Positions 50,588 through 55,156 of a DNA stretch of 64,000 bases are shown here, piece after piece. The notes under the pieces are model-generated. The model was not told the DNA's origin. It was given only the letters and a program-made list of their open reading frames with translations, and ran no database searches. Position 1 is the first letter of the stretch; every line of letters starts with the position of its first letter. The position numbers were made by a program, and so were the translations under genes. Source of the DNA: Demequina flava (GTDB taxonomy: Bacteria; Actinomycetota; Actinomycetes; Actinomycetales; Demequinaceae); NCBI RefSeq assembly GCF_000975035.1, contig NZ_BBRA01000002.1, forward strand, positions 1-64,000, written 5' to 3'.

Positions 50588-52003
50588 ATGGTCGCCGAAG
50601 GACAGGATCGGGTTGCGGCGCTTCAGGCGCGCAACACGGAACTGCAGCGTTTGCTGGAGGCCTCCCGCGAAGCAATGGGGGAGATGCGGGCCAAACTTGC
50701 TGAAGCATCGGCCCCACCCCACACCTTCGCCACGTTCGTGCAGACAGTCGGCGACCACGCTGACGTCGTGTCCAACGGACGCCGCATGCGTGTTGGCGTG
50801 ATGCCCGATCTCGATCTCGATCTCGACCTCCAGCCCGGAGACGAGGTTCTCCTTAACCCCATGAGCGTGATCGTGGGTGGGGCTGATGCTGAATTCACCG
50901 GCCAAGGTGCCCTGGTGCGTGAAGTCCTCGACGACGAACGTGCTCTCGTTGTCTCGCGCGGTGAAGATGAGCGCGTTGTGCGACTCATCGGCGGCAACGC
51001 ACGTGAACGCCTCACCGAAGGCGACACCGTGATCATCGATCAGCGCACCGGCTTCGCCTCCGAGCGCATTGAGCGCACCGGTGTTGAAGCATTGCTGCTG
51101 GAAGAGGTTCCCGACGTGGACTTCGAGTCCATCGGTGGACTGGGCCGCCAGATCGACCGCATTCGCGACGCCATCGAACTTCCGTTGCGTCACCCCGACC
51201 TGTACCGCGAGCACGCGCTGACGCCGCCACGTGGGCTGTTGCTGTACGGCCCGCCGGGATGCGGCAAGACGCTGATCGCCAAGGCGGTGGCACATTCATT
51301 GGCCGATGCTGTGGGAGCCGATCGCTCCTACTTCCTATCGGTCAAGGGTCCCGAACTGCTGAACAAGTACGTCGGCGAGACTGAGCGCTACATCCGCACC
51401 ATCTTTGAGCGCGCACGCGCCAAGGCGTCGCAAGGTTCCCCTGTGGTGGTGTTCTTCGATGAGATGGAAGCACTGTTCCGCTCGCGAGGCTCCGGCGTCA
51501 GCTCCGATATGGAGACCACGATCGTCCCGCAGTTGCTGACCGAACTCGACGGTGTTGAGCAGCTCGGCAACGTCATCGTTATTGGTGCCTCGAACCGCGA
51601 GGACATGATCGACCCCGCCATCATGCGCCCCGGCCGTTTGGACGTGAAGATCGAGGTGTCGCGCCCCGACGCTACCTCCGCTCGTGACATCTTCTCGAAG
51701 TACCTCACAGCGAATCTGCCCCTGGCGTCGGCTGTCGTGGACTCCAGCGGCGGCGACCGCGAGCGTGCGGTGACCGACCTCGCCGCGCACGCCGTGGGTC
51801 ACCTCTATGCGGACCCCTCCAATGCGGAGTACATGTCTGGCGCGCTGATCCGCAATGTCGTCGACCGTGCCAAGACCAACGCCATCAAGGCGCTGATCGC
51901 CGGCGGCGAGCGTGGAATCTCCACGGAGCACATGGATGCCGCGTGCGAAGCGGAACTGGCTGAGGCCCGCGCCGTCGCCAGCTCTCACCTCCGCGAAGGC
52001 TGA
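50588..52003 (+). CDS. arc: ARC/Mpa AAA+ ATPase, short form without proteasome-docking tail
   Basis: 471 residues, against about 600 for Mpa of M. tuberculosis. A short coiled coil (about 5-40) is followed by OB domains (to about 178) and the AAA+ module: Walker A GPPGCGKT at about 221-228, Walker B VVVFFDEMEA with Asp 291 and Glu 292, and SNREDMIDPAIMRPGRLD. From memory of Mpa, the first part of the coiled coil, a loop before GALIRNVVDRAK, and the C-terminal extension ending in GQYL are missing; this protein ends SSHLREG. The family unfolds pupylated proteins. ATG 50588 follows the trmI stop directly, so no longer N-terminus is possible without read-through. dop begins 3 bases after the stop. 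Confidence 0.93.
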   Translation: MVAEGQDRVAALQARNTELQRLLEASREAMGEMRAKLAEASAPPHTFATFVQTVGDHADVVSNGRRMRVGVMPDLDLDLDLQPGDEVLLNPMSVIVGGADAEFTGQGALVREVLDDERALVVSRGEDERVVRLIGGNARERLTEGDTVIIDQRTGFASERIERTGVEALLLEEVPDVDFESIGGLGRQIDRIRDAIELPLRHPDLYREHALTPPRGLLLYGPPGCGKTLIAKAVAHSLADAVGADRSYFLSVKGPELLNKYVGETERYIRTIFERARAKASQGSPVVVFFDEMEALFRSRGSGVSSDMETTIVPQLLTELDGVEQLGNVIVIGASNREDMIDPAIMRPGRLDVKIEVSRPDATSARDIFSKYLTANLPLASAVVDSSGGDRERAVTDLAAHAVGHLYADPSNAEYMSGALIRNVVDRAKTNAIKALIAGGERGISTEHMDAACEAELAEARAVASSHLREG

Positions 52004-52006
52004 TAC

Positions 52007-53536
52007 GTGCGCATCGCAGGAATCGAGACCGAGTACGGAATCGCCGACCCCAACAATCCCCAGGCAAACCCCATCCTGATGTCCTCACGGCTCGTCGAGG
52101 CGTGCCGGACCTGGGCGGGGGAGAACACCGCGCGCTGGGACTACGGCGGCGAAGACCCGCTCCAAGACCAGCGCGGGCACCGGCGCGAGCGCGCCCAAGC
52201 GCACCCCAGCATGCTGACGGACGAGGCCGAGTTCGACGAGAACGTGGGAGCGGTCTCGTTGCGCAAGCGCAGAGGATCGTGGGAAGACCCCGCGCATCTC
52301 AACGCCGTCCTGCCCAATGGATCACGGTTCTACGTCGACCACGCCCACCCGGAGTACTCAGGGCCCGAGGTGCGTGCGGCACGGGACGCGGTGGTGTGGG
52401 ACACCGCGGGCGATGCCATCGCGCTCGCGGCGCTCGCGCAGTACCGGGAAACCGAGGGTCTTGACCTCGCGCTGTACAAGAACAATGTCGACGGCAAGGG
52501 CGCGTCGTACGGAACTCATGAGAACTTCCTGGTCCGGCGGGATCTGGACTTCGACCAGCTCGGGCGCTGGCTCACGCCACACCTCGTGACTCGCCAGGTC
52601 CTGGTGGGCGCAGGGCGTGTGGGGCTGGGCCAACGCGGGGAGGGTGCTGGATTCCAAATCTCCCAACGCGCGGACTACATGGAGGCAGAGGTCGGGCTTG
52701 AGACGACCCTGCGCCGTCCCATCATCAACACCCGCGATGAGCCTCACGCTGAACGATCCCGCTGGCGCCGGCTGCACGTGATCATCGGCGACGCCAACTG
52801 TTTCGAGATGGCCACCTTCCTCAAGATCGGCACCACGGCGCTCGTGTTGTCTGCGATTGAGGCTGAGGACGAGCGTCTTGATTCCCTCGTGCTGGCAGAC
52901 GCGGTGCCCGCAGTCCAGACCGTTTCCCACGACATCACTTTGCGGGCAGCAATACCGCTGGAGTCCGGGGAGCAAGCCACAGCACTTGAGGTCCAACGCG
53001 CGCTGCTGGCGATCTGCCGGGATTACGCCGAGGATGCCGCTGACCACACTCTGCTGGCGCATTGGGAACGCATCCTTGACGCACTGTCTATCGATCCGTT
53101 CTCCGCGGCGAGAGACGTCGAATGGGTCGCGAAGCTGGCGCTCCTGGGGCGTTTGCGGGAGCGCAACGCCACACGCCACGATGATGGCTCCACGGAGCTA
53201 CTCGAGTGGTCCGATGCTCGGTTGGCGGCTCTTGACGTTCAGTGGAGCAGGCTTGGCGACGGCTGGGCGGCGAAACTCACGGCAGCCGGTCAGGTCAGTC
53301 GGTTGACCGACGACATGGAAGTTGCCGAGGCAATGAAGCGCGCGCCGCGGGACACTCGAGCTGCGTTGCGGGGCCGGCTGATTGCGGCACGCCCTGATCT
53401 TGTTGACGCAGCCGGGTGGTCGTCCGTGGTGATCGACCGTGACACTGACCACGGCAACCTCGAAGTGATTCACCTCGACGACCCGCATGCGTCCACGCAT
53501 CCGCTGATCGACGCCCTCGCAACTCAAACACTCTGA
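52007..53536 (+). CDS. dop: Dop, Pup deamidase/depupylase
   Basis: 509 residues. It converts the C-terminal Gln of Pup to Glu and removes Pup from substrates. The N-terminal GIETEYGIADP carries the metal/ATP-site glutamates. The Dop-specific loop region (about 45-75, GGEDPLQDQRGHRRERAQ) is present, distinguishing it from PafA, together with LYKNNVDGKGASYGTHENFL. GTG start at 52007, 3 bases after arc. Because Pup here ends in Gln, Dop is needed before PafA can act. Confidence 0.95.
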   Translation: MRIAGIETEYGIADPNNPQANPILMSSRLVEACRTWAGENTARWDYGGEDPLQDQRGHRRERAQAHPSMLTDEAEFDENVGAVSLRKRRGSWEDPAHLNAVLPNGSRFYVDHAHPEYSGPEVRAARDAVVWDTAGDAIALAALAQYRETEGLDLALYKNNVDGKGASYGTHENFLVRRDLDFDQLGRWLTPHLVTRQVLVGAGRVGLGQRGEGAGFQISQRADYMEAEVGLETTLRRPIINTRDEPHAERSRWRRLHVIIGDANCFEMATFLKIGTTALVLSAIEAEDERLDSLVLADAVPAVQTVSHDITLRAAIPLESGEQATALEVQRALLAICRDYAEDAADHTLLAHWERILDALSIDPFSAARDVEWVAKLALLGRLRERNATRHDDGSTELLEWSDARLAALDVQWSRLGDGWAAKLTAAGQVSRLTDDMEVAEAMKRAPRDTRAALRGRLIAARPDLVDAAGWSSVVIDRDTDHGNLEVIHLDDPHASTHPLIDALATQTL

Positions 53537-53546
53537 CGCGCGCGTC

Positions 53547-53552
53547 TAGACT
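53547..53552 (+). promoter_or_regulatory. Candidate -10 element for leaderless pup
   Basis: TAGACT lies six bases before ATG 53559, the same hexamer and spacing as trmI. It would let pup and pafA be made apart from arc and dop. Confidence 0.5.
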
Positions 53553-53558
53553 GGCGGT

Positions 53559-53738
53559 ATGCCTCAGACACATGCTTCCGGACAGCCCTACGAGGACGAT
53601 GCGCCCGAGCCCGCGGCAGCGCCCGCCAAGGCCGAGAACACTGACGCCCTTGACAGTCTGCTTGACGAGATTGACGACTCACTCCAGGTCAATGCCGAGC
53701 AGTTTGTGCGTTCCTTCGTGCAAAAGGGCGGGCAGTAA
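53559..53738 (+). CDS. pup: Pup, prokaryotic ubiquitin-like protein
   Basis: 59 residues, acidic and mostly disordered. The conserved C-terminal half reads DALDSLLDEIDDSLQ then NAEQFVRSFVQKGGQ. It ends in GGQ, so deamidation by Dop is required to give GGE for ligation to lysines. The lysine in VQKGGQ is the usual internal Lys near the end. It lies 22 bases after dop and 17 bases before pafA. Too short for many gene finders. Confidence 0.96.
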   Translation: MPQTHASGQPYEDDAPEPAAAPAKAENTDALDSLLDEIDDSLQVNAEQFVRSFVQKGGQ

Positions 53739-53755
53739 TCGCGTCCGCTACACCA

Positions 53756-55156
53756 GTGGGTGCCGAGGTGCCCGAACCGCTCGACGTTCCCGCGCATCGG
53801 CGCATCTTTGGGCTCGAAACTGAGTTCGGGCTACACCTCGACGCCCCCAACGCGCGCTCGGTAACCCCTGAAGAGGTGGCCGGGCATCTGTTCCGTTCCG
53901 TCGTGGAGTGGGGGCGCTCGTCCAATGTGTTCTTGACGAATGCATCGCGCCTGTACATCGATGTTGGCGCACACCCCGAATACGCGACTGCAGAGTGCGA
54001 CAACCTCACGGACCTGATTGCCTCGGATAAGGCGGGCGAGCGGATCGTCCACAACCTCATTGCCGACGGTGAACGACGGCTCCAAGAGGCCGGTATCGAC
54101 GGCACCATCCACCTGTACAAGAACAACACGGATTCCGCCGGCAACAGTTATGGCTGTCACGAGAACTATCTCGTGCGCCGCCGCGCGGACTTCAGGGCCT
54201 TCGCCTCGGCTCTCCTGCCATTCCTCATCACTCGCCAGATCGTGACGGGTGCAGGGTGCATTACGCGCACCCCAGATGGCGGGCACTTTAGCTTCTCACC
54301 GCGCGCGGATCACATGTGGGAGGGCCTCAGTTCCGCGACCACCAGGTCGCGTCCCATGATCAACACGCGCGATGAGCCACATGCGACGGCAGAGCTGTAC
54401 CGCCGCATGCACGTCATCGTCGGCGATTCCACGATGGCGGAGCCCACGGCGTTGCTCAAGGTCGGTGCCACCGATCTGATGCTGCGCTTGATGGAAGCGC
54501 ACGTGAAGCTCCCCGACTTCACGCTCGCCAACGAGATGCAGGCTATCCGGGCAGTGGCCCACGACATGACGGGACAGGCGACCGTTGAACTTGCAGACGG
54601 CCGTCACCTCACCGCAGTCCAGATTCAACAGGCATACCTCGATGAGGTGAGTTCCCACGTCGGTGGCGTGATCGAACGCACAGATGAAGTCGACCAAATT
54701 CTTGACCTCTGGGACCGCGGAATCCGGGCGGTACGGGACCAGGACTTCTCGCTCGTCGAGACGGAGTTGGACTGGGCAATCAAGCATCGGCTCGTGGAGC
54801 GCTACCGGGACCGCCTGGGCTGCCGCCTCGACGATCCGCGCCTTGCCCGACTGGAGATGGCCTTCCACGACGTGTCGCCGCAGCGCGGCTTGTACTACCG
54901 GCTGGTGGAGCAGGGGCTCATCAAGCGCATCATCGACGATGCCGCGATCGAGCGCGCGATGACGGTTGCTCCGCAAACCACCCGTGCCAAGCTCCGGGGC
55001 CGCTTCGTGGATGCCGCGCTGGCGTCTGGGCAGGACTTCACTGTGGACTGGGTGCACCTCAAACTCACGGGTGCTCACCAGACGATTCTCTTGAAGGATC
55101 CCTTTCGCAACGACGATGCCCGAGTCGACGCGCTTGTGGCGAAACTTGACGCTTAG
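53756..55156 (+). CDS. pafA: PafA, Pup-protein ligase
   Basis: 466 residues. It joins the Pup C-terminal glutamate to substrate lysines using ATP. The N-terminal RRIFGLETEFGLHLD carries the metal-binding Glu, and the conserved NNTDSAGNSYGCHENYLV and FSPRADHMWEGLSSATTRSR distinguish it from Dop. The C-terminal domain is normal. GTG 53756 is the first in-frame start; GTG 53768 is possible. It directly follows pup, where prcB and prcA lie in proteasome-bearing relatives. Confidence 0.95.
   Translation: MGAEVPEPLDVPAHRRIFGLETEFGLHLDAPNARSVTPEEVAGHLFRSVVEWGRSSNVFLTNASRLYIDVGAHPEYATAECDNLTDLIASDKAGERIVHNLIADGERRLQEAGIDGTIHLYKNNTDSAGNSYGCHENYLVRRRADFRAFASALLPFLITRQIVTGAGCITRTPDGGHFSFSPRADHMWEGLSSATTRSRPMINTRDEPHATAELYRRMHVIVGDSTMAEPTALLKVGATDLMLRLMEAHVKLPDFTLANEMQAIRAVAHDMTGQATVELADGRHLTAVQIQQAYLDEVSSHVGGVIERTDEVDQILDLWDRGIRAVRDQDFSLVETELDWAIKHRLVERYRDRLGCRLDDPRLARLEMAFHDVSPQRGLYYRLVEQGLIKRIIDDAAIERAMTVAPQTTRAKLRGRFVDAALASGQDFTVDWVHLKLTGAHQTILLKDPFRNDDARVDALVAKLDA

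Follow-up and report, generated by a model that had tools for sequence, protein, structure and literature searches.

Pupylation in Demequinaceae appears to work without a proteasome, and ARC, the ATPase of this system, has lost both halves of its beta-grasp domain together with the GQYL tail in each of the 19 genomes that represent the family, which is what is new here. In the reading that we consider quite probable from the sequences, ARC would pull out or unfold Pup-tagged proteins, which would then be released undegraded. Other actinobacteria are known to have this arrangement, which is unusually complete in Demequina: it is a known state in a new lineage, whose ARC is more fully stripped of 20S-binding parts than in the Corynebacterium glutamicum model and which has no ferritin. 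For Pup tagging in the absence of a proteasome, ferritin offers one worked example and the sole experimentally supported target. Demequina provides a natural test case, in which the system is under selection, ferritin is missing, and the motor is devoid of known 20S contacts; considering the latter two features, any Pup-dependent effect in Demequina needs another target and cannot stem from 20S docking.

The locus was examined in a window of Demequina flava DNA (the whole stretch of 64,000 nucleotides that was analysed), where arc, dop, pup, and pafA, all intact, follow one another on the forward strand at 50588-55156:

50588-52003, forward strand: arc (mpa homologue), AAA ATPase of 471 aa, NCBIfam TIGR03689
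50591-50707, forward strand: ARC residues 2-40, coiled coil (Pup-docking element in Mpa), predicted helix that aligns to Mpa residues from 60
51812-51832, forward strand: ARC site facing the missing Mpa segment, no counterpart of the Mpa beta16-17 hairpin
51965-52003, forward strand: ARC C-terminus, residues 460-471 (...SSHLREG) and stop, with the beta-grasp helix and strand and GQYL missing
52007-53536, forward strand: dop, Pup deamidase/depupylase of 509 aa, TIGR03688
53559-53738, forward strand: pup, 59 aa, C-terminal VQKGGQ, TIGR03687 and PF05639 above cut-off
53739-53755, forward strand: pup-pafA junction of 17 bases, the place of prcB and prcA in 20S-bearing relatives
53756-55156, forward strand: pafA, Pup-protein ligase of 466 aa, TIGR03686

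This gene order and the 17-base gap, both pointed out in the initial annotation, were confirmed, the former with support from NCBIfam and concordant Pfam assignments. All four proteins exceed the curated cut-offs of their NCBIfam equivalog models (ARC, 612 bits against 505; Dop, 541 against 492; Pup C-terminal domain, 65 against 41; PafA, 654 against 551). The other spacers are 3 bases (arc-dop) and 22 bases (dop-pup), and trmI lies directly upstream of the arc start. The genes that define a pupylation system, namely Pup with a GGQ end, PafA, and Dop, are present, and the description of the enzymes as intact holds: Pup, which aligns to the Pup of 7px9, ends in QKGGQ; Dop retains the Dop loop and, in YVDHAHPEYS, an aspartate at the position of D94 in 4b0r by alignment to the solved structure; and PafA has an aspartate in LYIDVGAHPEYA (53960-53962) that aligns to D64 in 4b0t. 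We take these two aspartates to be the catalytic nucleophiles of their families. Besides, a pair of WYL-domain genes, probably pafB and pafC, was observed at G000:C2:192461-193583 (L327, L328), about 137 kb away from pafA, which this pair adjoins in mycobacteria.

ARC displays the features by which the Mpa/ARC family is recognized, i.e., an N-terminal coiled coil, tandem OB domains, and an AAA domain with Walker motifs, along with a helical subdomain; its closest PDB relatives are Mpa structures, and both Walker A (GPPGCGKT) and FFDE are invariant across 22 aligned ARC sequences. It is 89% identical to the ARC of Demequina globuliformis and 80-84% identical to its counterparts in most other Demequina species, and on the strength of these identities family f1 is taken to be Demequinaceae. 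Neither a beta-grasp domain nor a GQYL tail is present in it. An 18-residue stretch that forms the beta16-17 hairpin of Mpa is deleted in the alignment, the hairpin-containing stretch measuring 61 residues versus 79 in all 19 Demequinaceae genomes. The tail past SGAxI comprises 49-50 residues in the same 19 genomes versus about 91 in 20S-bearing relatives, and at its end point ARC stops after 12 residues where Mpa extends 52 more (557 to 609). Taken together, what the two shortened stretches have lost is the split beta-grasp domain, in both its halves, and the GQYL tail. The AlphaFold model, whose overall pTM is modest (0.52), shows the N-terminal coil at residues 2-40 and a confident, all-helical, hairpin-free C-terminal subdomain. 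In Mpa, contacts with the 20S proteasome are made by the GQYL motif and the hairpin, and mutation of the hairpin lowers degradation (PMC9599533; PMC8755798). Demequinaceae ARC is thus devoid of every known 20S contact, and it has neither the GQYL-type motif nor the beta-grasp docking domain that mark the ATPase of a Pup-proteasome system.

These features can be set against systems already described. Mycobacterium tuberculosis has homologous Pup, Dop, PafA, and Mpa and the same gene order, whereas Demequina lacks prcBA and Bpa, and its ARC, in which the 20S-binding parts are missing, falls about 140 residues short of the 609 residues of the Mpa chain. The C. glutamicum system is closer, with the same four genes, pup adjoining pafA, no 20S, a retained ATPase, and a proposed non-degradative role; however, its Mpa/ARC keeps the beta-hairpin, with IDGSV replacing ANGDK (PMC8755798), whereas Demequina ARC has no beta-grasp domain. 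Other 20S-less actinobacterial loci have likewise lost prcBA and retained the Pup genes, with an ATPase that lacks the C-terminal interaction motif (PMC3511204), but most of the 20S-less ARCs with readable boundaries in the present sample retain the beta-grasp region. Outside Demequinaceae, loss of both halves was found in single genomes of two families, f6 (G071) and f3 (G123), and for this reason the full loss of the domain probably arose more than once.

The absence of the proteasome was examined across the whole genome (2,546,965 bases, or 2.55 Mb). PF00227, a profile that covers 20S alpha and beta subunits as well as HslV, gave zero matches and zero candidates in it (no PrcA, PrcB, or HslV), and the same search picked it up in 144 of the 248 genomes from the order and in 10 of the 14 controls. 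The possibility that prcBA lies elsewhere in the genome was thereby not borne out. PF00227 is also missing from all 19 Demequinaceae genomes (family f1), every one of which bears Pup, and in all 19 the conserved motif at the start of PafA follows 56-71 nt after the pup stop, as against about 1,450-2,600 nt in nearly all prcBA-bearing genomes. The proteasome activator Bpa was detected in none of the 31 searched genomes without 20S and in 21 of the 29 searched genomes with it. A proteasome that exists but was overlooked, because the assembly has a gap or because its subunits are extremely divergent, could be imagined considering that the assembly consists of three contigs instead of one, but its completeness is 99.97%, and a gap between pup and pafA is excluded because 18 relatives also lack 20S and all have the short junction. 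With Bpa missing too and the docking parts of ARC lost, an overlooked proteasome is vanishingly improbable, and we rejected it.

Loss of the tail and loss of 20S do not always coincide in the order. GxYL is kept in 1 of 79 ARC rows without 20S and in 69 of 73 with 20S, 56 of the latter being named loci from close relatives; on the tree, the association is not significant because there are only three tail changes and two informative independent pairs. In family f7, prcBA is present and its catalytic threonine is retained, yet none of the 12 ARC sequences of this family ends in GxYL (L225, L307-L311, L315-L318, L321, L322; ends such as PNSDLV, DSSLI, and THMSMF), and the four f7 Bpa sequences read end in GNYL (L329-L331, L333). 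ARC without GxYL was also found together with a 20S proteasome in family f20 (L236, L314) and in two f11 genomes (L237, L261), and Bpa was detected in none of the searched 20S-bearing f20 and f11 genomes. Because of these exceptions, a missing tail alone is no proof of a missing 20S. It may be that the f7 proteasome is still served by Bpa but no longer coupled to ARC. Uncoupling of ARC from 20S may precede 20S loss; alternatively, tail-less ARCs of 20S-bearing families may dock differently. Families with 20S and a GQYL-less ARC suggest the former, i.e., that uncoupling can come before proteasome loss. One 20S-less f9 genome, G242 (L163), has an ARC that still ends in ATGTYL and keeps the beta-grasp domain, and it has probably lost 20S recently.

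Purifying selection acts on all four genes, and the system is thus maintained. Comparison with the closest relative gave dN/dS of about 0.06 for arc (dN 0.075, dS 1.32), 0.10 for dop (0.131, 1.30), 0.04 for pup (0.024, 0.68), and 0.07 for pafA (0.096, 1.44), and the flanking genes are comparable (trmI, dN 0.048 and dS 1.05; hisF, 0.089 and 1.31), values of dS above 1 being rough estimates only. Considering the low dN/dS in all four genes, a decaying locus was rejected.

The explanation by ferritin cannot be transferred to Demequinaceae. For C. glutamicum, a species without 20S, it has been proposed that ARC unfolds pupylated ferritin and thereby frees iron (PMC8223512), a case that the initial annotation had invoked. 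This target is a feature of the C. glutamicum system, although not one needed for membership, and Demequina has none: ferritin and bacterioferritin were found in 0 of 19 Demequinaceae genomes, each of which has a single, Dps-like PF00210 protein with the Dps motif HWNVxGPxF (19 of 19). In NCBIfam, the D. flava protein matches no models other than those for Dps, and these below their strict cut-offs. The ferritin-release mechanism was rejected for Demequinaceae on the basis of these 19 ferritin-free genomes. Ferritins do occur in 20S-less genomes of f6, f17, and some of f11; Dps alone was found in the f3, f4, and f9 genomes read, and both proteins are missing from three genomes. Retention of a 20S-less Pup system cannot generally be explained by ferritin. 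Our literature search found pupylation and Dps together in a single paper, which deals with PafBC.

On the reading that we favor, an ancestor of the family would have lost prcB and prcA, with the Pup system remaining. Dop would deamidate PupQ, PafA would couple Pup to lysines, and Dop would later remove it; meanwhile, the ARC coiled coil would bind Pup, and the ATPase ring would unfold the tagged protein or extract it from its complex. As there is no 20S, and ARC has no surfaces left to hold one, the protein would be released rather than degraded, and Dop could free it of Pup. Enzyme activities, unfolding and release, and targets other than ferritin are all predicted from sequence, and we infer that the system is best read as a protease-free, Pup-gated disassembly machine acting on non-ferritin targets. 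That ARC was remodelled after proteasome loss, with the whole split beta-grasp domain excised and the ring exit opened for release of such targets, can be proposed only tentatively and is less probable than not. The idea that the Pup system works without a proteasome is supported, and more strongly than from the locus alone because ARC has lost its 20S-docking parts, but neither the ferritin analogy nor the status of an isolated case survived.

Two other functions were weighed against unfolding and release. Pup might still be a degradation tag if ARC passed its tagged substrates to a different protease, such as ClpP or some unknown chamber; the motor for unfolding is conserved, and without the beta-grasp collar the ring exit would lie open, which could suit a new partner, but the ARC C-terminus shows no new conserved motif and varies within Demequinaceae (SSHLREG, AAGTLAGA, and ARHLDRG), and no candidate protease is apparent among the genes adjoining pafA, which makes such a hand-over improbable. 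We regard it as equally unlikely that pupylation is a reversible regulatory mark by itself, with ARC playing another role or little role. PafA and Dop would indeed make a complete tag-and-remove cycle, and ARC has lost one domain; however, ARC was found in 80 of 80 searched Pup genomes without 20S, and arc is under purifying selection like its neighbors, with the Pup-binding coil kept. Unfolding and release of targets by ARC is the likeliest function on the present sequence evidence.

The locus had been presented as a further proteasome-less case, which is correct insofar as the 20S-less Pup system is real, but it is neither isolated nor rare: among 226 sampled genomes of the order that bear Pup, 83 have no 20S, two of these 83 being less complete, and they are spread over eight families (two surveys compared). 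Corynebacteria, Micrococcus luteus, Kocuria, Actinomyces odontolyticus, and bifidobacteria presumably all belong to the 20S-less group, a placing that is in part our assumption. On a tree of Dop, PafA, and ARC, 20S presence changes at least seven times, and Demequinaceae form a single clade. Reviews since 2012 record 20S-less pupylation, also outside corynebacteria (PMC3511204, PMC8223512, PMC4254994), with such loci reported for the five groups named above (PMC4254994; also PMC8223512, PMC3511204), and in some actinobacteria pupylation is kept, 20S is absent, and pup immediately precedes pafA (PMC3511204; PMC8223512). D. flava shows the hallmarks of the C. glutamicum-type system, since Pup, Dop, PafA, and ARC are present, prcBA is absent, and pup lies directly before pafA; our literature search returned no work on pupylation in this genus. 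In family f19, the complete genomes that were sampled (2.8-4.3 Mb) gave no Pup match, and the whole pupylation system seems to be lost there. Two 20S-less f3 genomes, G151 (L185, L186) and G179 (L201, L202), each carry two separate pupylation loci with differing ARC sequences.
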